From the NCBI GenBank assembly GCA_020740775.1, contig JAHEWK010000013.1, forward strand, positions 1,984,001-2,048,000: a stretch of 64,000 bases of DNA, written 5' to 3'. This DNA comes from Ilyonectria destructans. Lineage: Eukaryota; Ascomycota; Sordariomycetes; Hypocreales; Nectriaceae. Below, in pieces: positions 49,051 to 55,151 of the stretch; position 1 is the first letter of the stretch; every line of letters starts with the position of its first letter. The translations under genes were made by a program, and so were the position numbers. Below the pieces are notes generated by a model. The model ran no database searches. It was not told the DNA's origin and worked only from the letters and a program-made list of their open reading frames with translations.

Positions 49051-51548
49051 ATGACCGACCGGAACCCCGCGGCCATGGGCAAGAGCGGCAAGGCGGGCGA
49101 GCGAGTCAAAGTGGAAGACGGCAAGGGGAACGACCGCGACAAGCCCGCCGCTGGCGCTGATGTCGCGCCTGCCAACGCCCACAAGAGCCCCAAGAAGAGA
49201 CGCAAGGTGAACCACGGTACGCATTCCCACAGACTGAGCCTTTCCCCTGCTTCTTGGAGTCACCGCGACTGTCCCCCGCGAGCCGCGCTCGAAGGATCAG
49301 GTCGCGTTGGAGTTGCCGTCTTCTGTGGTGTTGCCGGAGTGTGGTTGCGGCTGAAGAGCGGCGGCAACCACATCGCAACCCATTGAGCCCCAACTCCCGC
49401 ACGCCTGCCGCCGAGAGAGCGCCGGGGGCATGTTTAATCGAGAAACGAACTTGGGCTGACATTGCGGGGCGTCTGCGCTCCTACAGCTTGCGTATATTGC
49501 CGACGATCTGTAAGTCAATACCGGATGAAGATGCGCAGGCGCAATTGGCTTCGGCCGCCGTGCCAGAGCGCTCCGAGGCGCTCGACTATTTGTCCTGCGC
49601 CTTTGTGAGGCGACACAGCGCCTGCGGGCTTTCCTTCCCCCTTTTCCCTTTGCCTGCATTTACATCGAGTCCTTGAGAGGCGTGGCTGACGGGCTGTTTC
49701 TTGTGCGCGGTTAGCACATGACTTGCGATCTCGTATGTAAGATCTCGAACGAGTTCCTCGCCTCCGTGGGCGCCGCCTCTATTGCCTCGCGGCGGCGGTG
49801 GTGGTGTTCGCGGAGACGGGAGGGCTTGTTCGCATTTTCCCCCTTGAAAGCCATGCGCTGACAGCGTGGATAGGAGAGACCATGTACGAGATGTATCAAA
49901 CGCAACATCGGGCACCTCTGCCATGACGAGCCCCGCGATACCGACTCCAAAAAGGCCAAGAGCATACAGACCTCCTCCGTCGTCGATGAGTCTGACGCCC
50001 AGTCCGATATAGCCCGCAGCTCCATCTCTAGTACCATGGGCCCACCACCCCCAAACTTCGATGGGACCAGACGCAAGTCAGGGTTCGCCGCTGGGGGCGT
50101 GTTAGGACAAGGCAACCCGCTGCCCCTTGTGCAACCGGGGCCTGTCTCCGGCCTGCAGGGAAATACGTTGAACAACGGTAACAACAATGCGAATCAATGT
50201 ACGTCTTGAGCACCCTTTGTCCTGCCGGGACCTCCCTAAGGGGGGCCGGTCTGTTTTCTTTTTTTTGCTTGTTTTGATTTTTAACCCACTGCGGAGAACG
50301 GGAGCGGCCGTCACCGACTTATTGACCTTGGCCATATCGACTGACACGCCACTTAGTCGCTGGCTTCCAAGATGCATGGATGACGGCTCAGAACCACTTC
50401 CATGACATGCACAGCTACCACCCCAACTACATGATCGCGCCCGAGGTCACTCACGAGTTTAGTCTACTCAACGACTTTCTTCATACTAGCTTACTAGATG
50501 ACGGTGGAGTGCCGTCCGATGATCAACAGAGCCCGGCATTCAGACGGTCGAGCCAGTCGGAAATGCTACCCGCCTTCGGTAACAACAACTCGCTGCAGCC
50601 CGGGGGCGTCAACCCGGCAAACATGTCAGGGGGACCTATGCTGCCCCCGCCGAACCTCGAAGGCAAGAACATATCGAGGCCGGGGAGTGTAGTGCCTGCC
50701 GACAAGGCCCGTGAGTACTACCTCCAAGCCGCTGACCCCTCAGGCAACGACACACCCGAGGAGCGTATGGCTCGCGTCCTCAAGGCCAAGTATGACGCCG
50801 GCCTGCTCAAGCCCTTTAACTACATCAAGGGCTATGCCCGTCTGGGCACCTATCTAGATAGCCACATCGCGCCGTCGTCCAAGCAGAAGATCCTGCGAAC
50901 CATCAACCAGTTCCGGCCCAAGTTCCGAGAAAAGGCGCAGGCCTTGACGGACATGGAGCTCGTATACGTTGAGATGTGGTTCGAGAAGCAGCTCATGGAT
51001 TACGACCGCGTCTTCGCCAGCATGGCCGTGCCGGCGTGTTGCTGGCGGAGAACCGGAGAGATCTTCCGGGGTAACAAGGAGATGGCCGAGTTGATTGGCG
51101 TGTCGGTGGATAAACTGAGAGATGTGGGTTGTCCCCGCCCCCGCCGTCTTGGCCCCTTGAGGCTCCTCCCCTCGGGGACGAGGGCTAGCGTTCCCGGTTG
51201 ACACTTGCTGACTCTTTTTCGACGACACAGGGCAAGATTGCGTTGCATGAGATTCTCACAGAAGAGTCGACGGTCCGGTACTGGGAAGAGTTTGGCACCA
51301 TCGCCTTCGACCCGGCCCACGAGACCCTCTTGACAGCGTGCTCGCTCAAGAACCCTAGCTCATCGTCGAGCCATCCGATTGTAAAATGCTGCTTCTCCTT
51401 TATGATCCGACGAGACGATCATAAACTGTACGTTCCACGCGCTCCCTCTCTTCACCGGTTGCGAGACTAGTTGCTGACTTGACTGTAAACCAGGCCGGCC
51501 TTGATCGTGGGCAACTTCTTACCACATGACCCGCCTCCCCAGCAGTGA
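49051..51548 (+). CDS. acuK: Transcription activator of gluconeogenesis AcuK/Ert1
   Basis: Zn2Cys6 regulator that activates gluconeogenic genes (PEP carboxykinase, fructose-bisphosphatase) on non-fermentable carbon. Seven exons (49051-49216, 49487-49509, 49715-49732, 49874-50198, 50357-51123, 51231-51427, 51494-51548) give 516 aa. The zinc cluster spans residues 57-85 with spacing C-x2-C-x6-C-x5-C-x2-C-x8-C and is spread over exons 2-4. The 23-nt exon 2 encodes CVYCRRS and the 18-nt exon 3 encodes HMTCDL. Exon 1 ends in a basic patch (KKRRKVNH). The PAS-like C-terminal region is typical of this family (GDTPEER-type linker, FNYIKGYARLGTYLDSHIAP, MELVYVEMWFEKQLMDYDRV). The first four introns are 141-270 bp, far longer than elsewhere here. 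Start choice at 49051 is the first reasonable ATG. Confidence 0.9.
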
Positions 51549-51980: not shown

Positions 51981-54900
51981 ATGGCACCCGCTGATCCAGT
52001 TGCCGTGGGGCGTGACAGAAAGATCAATGCCATCCTAGGTTGACATTATCCTCCCCTTGTGCGCTTCCATTTTTTGCTGATTAGAATCGTCAAAGACTTT
52101 GGCAAGGAACTTCTCTCGACGCTGCCGAACTCCCGCGATTCTACTTCGATCGAAGCTCTCCTCGCTGATCTCAACCACAACATACACACGGCTAATGCCT
52201 TGCCGCTGAAGACGACCAGCCTCTCCCCTCAGACCGCGAAATCCCTCAAAGACTGCGGAAGGAAGTTGTGGAATGAGTGTATCAAGGAAAGGAGGAAGAA
52301 GAATGATGGGTTGGCGCCCGGGAGGGCAAAGTTATTGGTGAGAACGAGGGTGTTTGCCTTTCTGATTCATGCACTGGCGCGAGAGAACCATCAAGGGAAG
52401 AGAAAGAGGGACGATGAAGAGGAGGTCGTGTATCTGATGCACTTGGCCTTGACGGTTGGGAGGCTTTGCGTCGAAGAGTCCGACCTGGACGGGGCACGAC
52501 TGGGGTTGCACAAGGTTGCCGACTACATTGAACAACTAAAGTCGATGGACCGAAATTCTCACGATGATCCAAGCCTGAGGAGCAGGTTTGAAGCAGAGTA
52601 TTTAACGATGCGCACAGCACTGGTAGGGTTGACCCTTTCTTTTACGAATTCTACTGACAACTGGACAGTCGTGGAAGGAGGACCGACTCGATGTAGCTGA
52701 GCACATGTACAGCAAAGCGGAATCCCTTCGACAGCATCTCGATCCATCTTCTGCCGAACACATGGCAGATACTCTGCAACACATCGGAAGCGACCTCTCA
52801 TCGAAGGGCGATTATGCAATGGCTCTTAAATGGCTCCGTCGAGCATACGAGATGATTAACGGCCAGGAGTTGGAACGTCTCTCGGCAGAAGGATTGGAAC
52901 TGCGACTAGCAATCTGCCACCACCTCGTCCAGGTGCTTCTTGCCATTGGATCTCCGGAGCATCTCCGAGAGGCTGATGACTTGGTGGCGTATGTGGAGTC
53001 GGAAATAGGAGACAAACCGGTAGTCTTGCACTGGAAACTGGAAATCCTGCAGAAGTCACCGAGCGAGGTGTTCGACACGGATGCCTGTGCAAGTATCCTG
53101 CGGCGGATGATCCGGTCCGTCGACTTTTCAGATGCAGCCCTCGGCTTTCTTCTTCACAATATCAAAAATCTACACGATAGGAATTCCCGACTCACAATGG
53201 GATTACTTGATGAACTGTTGCTGACGAGATTGTTACCATCGGGAAATCCGGATTGGATTGGAAAGGCTCTTGTACGGCGTGTATGGATGAGCTCGATGGA
53301 CCCGGAATCCTCCAATGCCGCCACTGAACTAACGGGCCTTCTTATGCGGATCCCACACGATTCTAGTAACTTGTTGGATGCCGATGTCACCATCGCTGCT
53401 CTGTCGGTATGTCGAACCCCCTTTCGTGAGAGTCCCTAACTGACCCTCAAAGCTTATATGGAAAAAGCTCGATGCACTCTACGCCAAGAAACAGTACAAA
53501 GCAGCAGAGCTTTGGTGTCGGGTCGCACTGCACGCAGTATTCTCGAATTGCGGCGAGGCAAACCAAGGGAAATTTAGCAGGAAACTCATTATATGCGCAA
53601 TCGCCTGCAATGACATTGATGCTGCACGGTCGGCCTTTAATGACATGCCGTCGAATGTACAAGACGACCCCTTGACGAGGTACCTTATGTTCAAGGCCTC
53701 GCTCACGGGCTGGGACCATGAACTTGGCTGCCAAAGTATCGAACACCTCAGTAGATCCTCCGACAAGGAAAAGAGCCAAGATATCCTCTATGCGTGTGTC
53801 AGGGAGGCACAGCAGGTCGGGGATAGGTTATGTACGTTGGCAGCGCTGAAAGCTGTAGTGGACAAGTGCGACTCAGGAGAGTCCTCAAGATCCCACTTTC
53901 CCTCAATTCTGAGATGTACAATCCGATTGATCCACCTGATTGAGAGTCAAGAAGGCGAAGTCCTGAACCAAGACCTTGAACTTGCCGAGGATACCTGTAA
54001 AATCTTCGAGAAAGGTTTGTTGTTTCTACTAAGCGTTCTGGACTAGACTAACAAGTTAAGCTGCCGAAAATTCAAGATTGGACACAAGAGATGGGGATGG
54101 GAATAAGGCGTTTACCGTACCTGAGTTGGAGTGGTTTCGAAAGAATGCTTACAACATTGGCGTCAAAAAATGCCACGTCTAGGGGCTGTGGCATCTGGTT
54201 CGGATATTCAGCTCATGCCTCACATTCATTGAATGTTTTCCTCAAGACATCCCCTCGAAGGACATATCTGGTATCCAAATCATGGAAATGCGGTGCCACT
54301 TTATCATTTCTGCAGCTCTCGTATCGCAAGCGAGGACGGAGGACAAGGTGGAGGAGCAACTTCAGCGCTATGTGGAGATGCGACAGCACATTGCATCATT
54401 CGACAAGACTTTCGCACTTGTTTCTCAAAAGGATTCAGATTCAGATGATGGACCCGCCATGGGAGATATGCTAGCAAAGCTGTCGACACTGTTTGTGTTT
54501 GATTTTGAAGGTGCCGTTTGCCTGAAGGGTTGGGACGACCTGGGTCAGGTTGTGAGGAAAGCAAGAATTTGCAAGGATGAGTTAATGTACAAGGCCATGG
54601 GAGACTCCTTGCTGAGAAGCCAAGCTCCAGGGAAGGGTAAGGGCCTGCCCAGCGCAAGAGAATCAAAGATGGGCTTCGTTAACTCTCGCTGCAGTGCTGT
54701 ACGCCACAATGCGCGCCATCATCAACCAGATTTTCGAGCTCGAGGACTTCGACAACCAGAGGCTCGCAAAGTATGTCCGCTGCATGTTCCAGGCGATTCT
54801 GCCCCTAGACGACAACTTGGCGTTGCAGGTGGTTGACCAAGCCCTCCAAATCGCCCGCGAGGGAAGCCAGGTATTTGATTATCAACCTGCTGGACTCGCT

Positions 54901-55151
54901 GGCTTTCCTGCCTCGCACTGACGTATCCCCCACAGATGCAAAAGCCGTTCCCGGGAGACGAACTCGACTGGATTGTCGCGACTACGTTTAACCACGCTAT
55001 CGACATACTGGCGCGGGGCGACGAGCCCCTGTGTCATCAATGGGCCCTCAAGGCGCTCGACATGGCAGAGTACATGAGTGATGGCGGCGATATGCGGAAC
55101 GTGCTTCAGGAGAGGGTCGTTAAGCTTGGTTTTAGCAAGGACACGCACTAA
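51981..55151 (+). CDS. ZIP4: Meiotic crossover protein ZIP4/SPO22, with one in-frame TAG
   Basis: TPR-rich ZMM-type protein that promotes crossover formation and synapsis in meiosis. Exons 51981-52038, 52096-52622, 52669-53406, 53453-54014, 54061-54636, 54695-54870 and 54936-55151 join in phase to 950 codons. The body is helical repeats: MADTLQHIGSDLSSKGDY, ALKWLRRAYEMI, PELEWFRKNAYNIGVK, LAKYVRCMFQAILP and QWALKALDMAEYM. Exon 1 was joined at CAAAG|AC to give NAILDFGKELL; this junction is the least sure. Codon 669 (54180-54182) is TAG between CHV and GLWHLVRIF, where related proteins have Trp. The frame is the same before and after, so it is a point change, not an indel. Read genomically the protein stops at 668 residues. 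The TAG lies in a hairpin loop and may be edited in mRNA; alternatives are a recent null allele or sequencing error. Confidence 0.85.
54170..54194 (+). promoter_or_regulatory. Hairpin around the ZIP4 TAG, candidate A-to-I editing site
   Basis: ATGCCAC (54170-54176) and GTGGCAT (54188-54194) are perfect reverse complements, giving a 7-bp RNA stem with an optional G-U closing pair. The 11-nt loop GTCTAGGGGCT holds the TAG, with the adenine at 54181 preceded by T and followed by G. This is the loop-plus-UAG context reported for fungal sexual-stage A-to-I mRNA editing. The structure is seen in sequence; editing is inferred. Confidence 0.55.

Follow-up and report, generated by a model that had tools for sequence, protein, structure and literature searches.

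The ZIP4/SPO22 gene of Ilyonectria destructans is interrupted by a single in-frame TAG at codon 669 (54180-54182, forward strand; coordinates refer to the window, the whole 64-kb stretch of DNA analysed here), and the best explanation of this codon is, with high probability, sexual-stage A-to-I editing, in which Tad2-Tad3-Ame1 would convert UAG to UIG and the ribosome would decode it as UGG (Trp). The initial annotation had proposed such editing at this site, and its proposal is supported by a position that is occupied by Trp alone in homologues, by the apparent recurrence of the stop in related fungi and by the presence of the machinery genes. The proposal stands up but has a precedent, since UAG-to-UGG editing of FGRRES_01563, the SPO22 ortholog of F. 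graminearum and thus the same gene in a different genus, was reported by Liu et al. 2016 (PMC4817773). For the species studied here, we infer both the editing itself and its restriction to sexual tissue.

The gene spans 51981-55151 on the forward strand, with exon borders set from GT-AG consensus and homology, and comprises seven exons (51981-52038, 52096-52622, 52669-53406, 53453-54014, 54061-54636, 54695-54870 and 54936-55151), the third encoding most of the SPO22 domain according to the profile match, the fifth containing the in-frame TAG with its candidate edited adenosine at 54181, and the seventh ending in the terminal stop codon. As first annotated, the model is in phase except for this one TAG: the joined exons amount to 951 codons with the end stop, codon 669 is the only internal stop, and neither a second one nor a frameshift occurs in the 950 codons of this gene model. 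Two introns lie downstream of the TAG.

For the comparison with homologues, the 7995 candidates sharing the most words were scored, giving 126 matches, of which 120 were listed and examined. The expectation of a Trp at the TAG held throughout, as the residue opposite codon 669 was Trp in all 52 listed models that have one, and 68/120 had no residue there. Among the 65 listed models with Nectriaceae names, six carried Trp (five of them F. oxysporum), nine ended exactly before the codon, 13 skipped a segment and resumed exactly at residue 670, and 37 had other gaps or ends. The 52 other named models in this list comprised 43 with Trp and nine without a residue (eight Trichoderma gaps and one partial model), and three further listed models, from unnamed sequence, all had Trp. 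Assignment to the Nectriaceae was by genus name, with a taxonomy look-up placing Ilyonectria, Mariannaea, Cosmosporella, Stylonectria, Cylindrodendrum and Dactylonectria in the Nectriaceae, Sordariomycetes. The difference between Nectriaceae and other models (Fisher p = 1.6e-16) is descriptive only, because the compared models are related.

The exact ends before codon 669 were found in models of Neonectria magnoliae, Cosmosporella, F. duplospermum, F. heterosporum, F. culmorum, F. poae and F. musae, in one model of F. lateritium and in one of F. falciforme; Cosmosporella was counted from its tail, its differing last residue falling outside the local alignment. Exact resumption at residue 670 points to a TAG at codon 669, because an intron end needs AG, which a Trp codon cannot supply; P0084, one of the 13 such models listed, skips a far longer stretch and is a weaker case. 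Along ZIP4, positions were omitted most often at codon 669 (57/109 spanning models); sampled positions 635-695 formed shoulders of 15-54 omissions, residues 425-500, adjoining true intron 3, gave a second hump of 14-25/120, and the remaining sampled positions had 0-11. Gaps alone were considered as proof of a stop and dropped, since two T. virens models that are 98.6% identical differ at this codon, one having Trp and the other a gap; single gaps thus prove nothing, and the argument relies on the models that end or resume exactly at the site. The gaps in the eight listed Trichoderma models count against reading gaps as stops, as does the gap in P0028, from Fusarium sp. MPI-SDFR-AT-0072, which shares about 97% identity with models of F. 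oxysporum. An alignment of ZIP4 from related species, suggested in the initial annotation, indicates recurrence of the TAG in Nectriaceae as read from gene models, with Trp otherwise the sole residue among the matches listed, and a stop at codon 669 seems to be common to the Nectriaceae relatives. Public ZIP4 models of this family need care, as 59/65 of those listed lack a residue at codon 669.

The stop could instead form the end of an alternative intron, an in-frame GT...AG stretch of 66 nt (54117-54182, forward strand) apparent in the sequence and in the I. robusta model, whose removal would leave a protein 22 residues shorter. Its GTACCT...TAG ends are intron-like, the frame is kept, models of I. 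robusta, D. macrodidyma and F. fujikuroi lack these 22 residues, and both editing and alternative splicing are reported for the FgBUD14 stop (PMC11156358). Splicing would, however, remove an ELxWFRKNAYNxG block that is recognisable in Trp-bearing models, which run straight across the stretch; no CTRAY branch motif occurs within 54117-54182, and introns at editable stops are treated in print as annotation errors (PMC4817773, PMC11169179). Splicing is accordingly improbable. Ribosomal readthrough of the UAG at some rate, with no edit, would account for coding sequence preserved on either side of the TAG, but it explains neither the Trp-only residue nor why the editing context is matched in full, and editing of the SPO22 ortholog is already on record; we consider it very unlikely.

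We regard each of the two remaining explanations as scarcely credible. A genuine nonsense mutation or an assembly error, leaving ZIP4 broken in this strain, would take a single G-to-A change from TGG to TAG, but the same codon is avoided in the model from another genome, that of I. robusta, the closest among the matches listed (93% identity in the search, 97% over the tree columns), the nine exact ends in the list come from other Nectriaceae, and the gene is otherwise free of stops and frameshifts. Alternatively, the 668-residue truncated protein could be the working product and its tail dispensable. The SPO22 domain (PF08631, residues 195-468, E 2.2e-74, whole profile matched) lies wholly upstream of codon 669, and a Pfam profile search found no match in the 281 residues that follow the stop, as a dispensable tail would have it. 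Against this, the tail is conserved about as much as the preceding part, or more, in genera whose models bypass codon 669. Counting aligned positions only, identity at residues 700-950 exceeded that at residues 1-640 in 15/16 models compared (85.3 versus 78.1% in D. macrodidyma, 80.9 versus 74.5% in N. ditissima and 72.2 versus 59.5% in F. fujikuroi), the exception being I. robusta (94.8 versus 97.2%). A tail that is never translated would look different, and the region past the TAG, being about as conserved as the region before it, is thus probably translated, as editing of codon 669 would allow.

As initially described, a perfect 7-bp stem holds the TAG in its loop, and T precedes (-1) and G follows (+1) the adenosine; pattern search and folding place the stem at 54170-54176 paired with 54188-54194 on the forward strand, enclosing an 11-nt loop. 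The pattern ATGCCAC-N(3-15)-GTGGCAT occurred once in the window, at 54170-54194, and in none of 100 shuffles. The folded 25-mer gained three extra inner pairs, leaving UAGG as a tetraloop (-11.7 kcal/mol). The pair probability of the hairpin was 1.00 in 31- and 41-nt contexts; in longer contexts it faced a competing stem, with probabilities of 0.57, 0.72, 0.22, 0.57 and 0.51 at flanks of 25, 30, 40, 60 and 100 nt. Across the folding contexts, stem probability thus ranged from 0.22 to 1.00 and the probability that A54181 is unpaired from 0.59 to 1.00. The bases from -2 to +4 around the adenosine (C,T,[A],G,G,G,G) are the preferred ones at 6/6 positions, by the preferences defined for edit sites of F. 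graminearum (PMC9600606). Over both strands of the window, 6/981 TAG trinucleotides lay inside a stem of at least 7 Watson-Crick pairs with a loop of at most 11, and 1/981 combined such a stem with the preferred base at all six positions.

The weight that the initial annotation had placed on this hairpin was reduced by a control in which the protein was kept fixed and synonymous codons were drawn at random in 3000 trials. A stem of equal length formed in 417/3000 recodings (14%), an equally stable 31-mer in 296/3000 and all six preferred bases in 891/3000. The stem is largely a by-product of the protein, because Cys-His-Val before the site and Trp-His after it go a long way towards building it alone. 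The hairpin as proof of selection was therefore dropped; it is by itself weak evidence, which fits editing without demonstrating selection for it, and over 62% of published edit sites, hence not all, lie in hairpin loops. Five F. oxysporum models (P0009, P0010, P0012, P0038 and P0044) have Tyr in place of His at residue 673 (GLWYL versus GLWHL), a codon that is part of one hairpin arm in the Ilyonectria gene; with Trp669 and Tyr673, F. oxysporum may have lost the stem as well as the stop.

The genome assembly (71.7 Mb, 74 contigs) was searched for the editing machinery. DUF726 matches were found at three places, one of which is an Ame1-like gene (G000:C34:1653109-1654156) with M500, V501, S531, E546, R548, D589 and H629 at the published spacing; in the two paralogs, positions 500-501 read AH and SL, as against MV in the Ame1-like gene. 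TAGs inside these two paralogs were rejected as candidates, both being just past splice-like borders. Tad3 (on C5) has H114, M120, H130 and P178 at exact spacing, with Val replacing the catalytic Glu, and its H343 and M359 are displaced from the fixed offset by one residue, which a length difference of a single residue would produce. The residues compared are those described as critical for editing in Ame1 and Tad3 (PMC11087585), the check covering all but V408 and V82, which lie across introns. Tad2 (on C12) is present with HAE and PCxxC motifs. Identified by motifs and residue spacing, Ame1, Tad2 and Tad3 are predicted to include an editing-competent Ame1-Tad3 pair, an interaction said to have arisen in Sordariomycetes (PMC11087585).

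In the proposed mechanism, Ame1 would recruit Tad2-Tad3 to the mRNA in developing fruiting bodies, A54181 would be converted to inosine, UIG would be decoded as UGG (Trp), and full-length ZIP4 would be made only in sexual development. The unedited transcript would yield a 668-residue protein with the SPO22 domain and without residues 669-950, a short form that is presumably without function. Alternatively, unedited transcript in other tissue could decay, as is possible because two introns follow the stop. The proposed course of events between Ame1 and the protein is drawn by analogy from work in F. graminearum (PMC11087585, PMC11156358). One Spo11-type exon was found in the genome. A genome search with no working positive control gave no match to the MAT1-1-1 alpha-box (PF04769), so that a sexual cycle of this strain is only presumed, a point against editing, and one for Hop2 (PF07106), also lacking a positive control, gave none; this could reflect a strain of the opposite mating type or genes hidden by introns.

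The published F. graminearum edit cannot be equated with codon 669 for certain, since the models skip two segments: FGSG_01563 (P0068) lacks 427-507 and 662-704 in the numbering of P0024, and the edit could therefore lie in 427-507 instead. The F. culmorum model, the nearest row to F. graminearum on the tree, ends exactly before codon 669, and the edited codon of F. graminearum is likely to be the same one. Six F. graminearum models (P0061-P0063, P0067, P0068 and P0070) also skip a segment around Trp462, a gap seen in 23/120 models listed. A second editable stop around residues 427-507 (about 53362-53650 of the window) is possible in the F. graminearum group; the skip adjoins true intron 3, so mis-modelling is possible too.

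Several genes resemble ZIP4 in that an in-frame UAG is restored to Trp by sexual-stage A-to-I editing, namely PUK1, AMD1, FgAMA1, FgRID and FgBUD14 (PMC11156358). Edited stops elsewhere are often not conserved between species, as with PUK1, of whose stops only the first is described as common to N. crassa and only the second to F. verticillioides (PMC5381528), whereas the ZIP4 stop seems to be family-wide. A parallel in annotation scars is CHE1, whose verified, conserved editable UAG in Fusarium is reported with truncated models, false introns and late starts (PMC11169179); unlike the editing proposed here, that of CHE1 is described in hyphae, where oxidative stress increases it, and only closely related Fusarium species are described as sharing the stop.

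A quick tree was built from 51 selected rows (the window and 50 of the 120 models, including three of the five F. oxysporum models), with the columns of codon 669 left out. After I. robusta, the nearest relatives by tree path were Cylindrodendrum, Dactylonectria and Neonectria. A clade of 40 rows (SH-aLRT 100) contained every stop and exact-resumption row of this tree, and the only Trp-bearing rows within it were F. oxysporum, P0024 and P0004. P0024 is labelled F. lateritium and was placed beside F. poae. P0004, from a 4.9-kb contig (source 'lgn'), has no introns and extends upstream in frame; on both grounds it may be a transcript, in which case the Trp could represent an edited base. With gap rows excluded, the distribution of Trp and stop over the 75 informative rows takes four changes, a number that matches one gain and three reversions.

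The ZIP4 UAG probably, though by no means surely, arose once near the base of the Nectriaceae, was kept by nearly all members as a DNA-encoded block on full-length ZIP4, lifted by sexual-stage editing alone, and reverted in F. oxysporum, where the Trp of the five models looks like a reversion. The stop seems to be retained in Cosmosporella, Neonectria, Dactylonectria, Ilyonectria and many Fusarium, and not in F. oxysporum. F. oxysporum has no known sexual cycle. Nor is a sexual stage known in F. culmorum and F. poae, whose models end exactly before codon 669; stops kept in these two species count against the editing reading. If the proposed history is true, the ZIP4 UAG would rank with the oldest and most broadly maintained editable stops of fungi, and the F. 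oxysporum reversion would be a natural test of whether selection keeps such stops. Whether restorative stop editing is adaptive or the outcome of a neutral ratchet is debated (PMC12754623, PMC5381528), and a stop in a crossover and synapsis gene would provide a replicated case for this debate, testable with the DNA of relatives. Among the titles and abstract openings of the literature searched, no report of family-wide conservation of the ZIP4 stop was found; its age and retention across the family may be new, as may its loss from F. oxysporum, with no priority claimed.

Elsewhere in the genome, the AMA1 ortholog (L036) carries an in-frame TAG (G000:C6:1159471-1159473, reverse strand; AATAGGAAGC) in an N-terminal linker, with coding sequence on either side. 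The I. robusta model begins after this TAG and those of D. macrodidyma and Neonectria ditissima skip it; in the first 90 of 120 models, and in a poorly aligned stretch, Trp occurred at its position only in five Trichoderma and one Seiridium. AMA1 is a second candidate, because FgAMA1 is described as an editing target (PMC11156358). FgRID is likewise described as edited (PMC11156358), and the matched parts of the RID ortholog had no in-frame stop, which counts against the editing reading. A search for the PUK1 tandem stop with a guessed pattern (GAY TAGTAG ...) gave 8 matches versus 14 for the reversed control and was dropped; it did not locate PUK1.

Many public models fuse ZIP4 (51981-55151) with an upstream ERT1/acuK-like gene, whose region occupies 50326-51548 of the window, and the fused products are about 1150-1470 aa long. 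Read in the frame that fits the AcuK C-terminus, the probable end of the AcuK protein, LIVGNFLPHDPPPQQ, meets a stop at 51546-51548, upstream of the ZIP4 start at 51981. The AcuK-ZIP4 fusion looks like an annotation error, because this stop lies well before the ZIP4 start.
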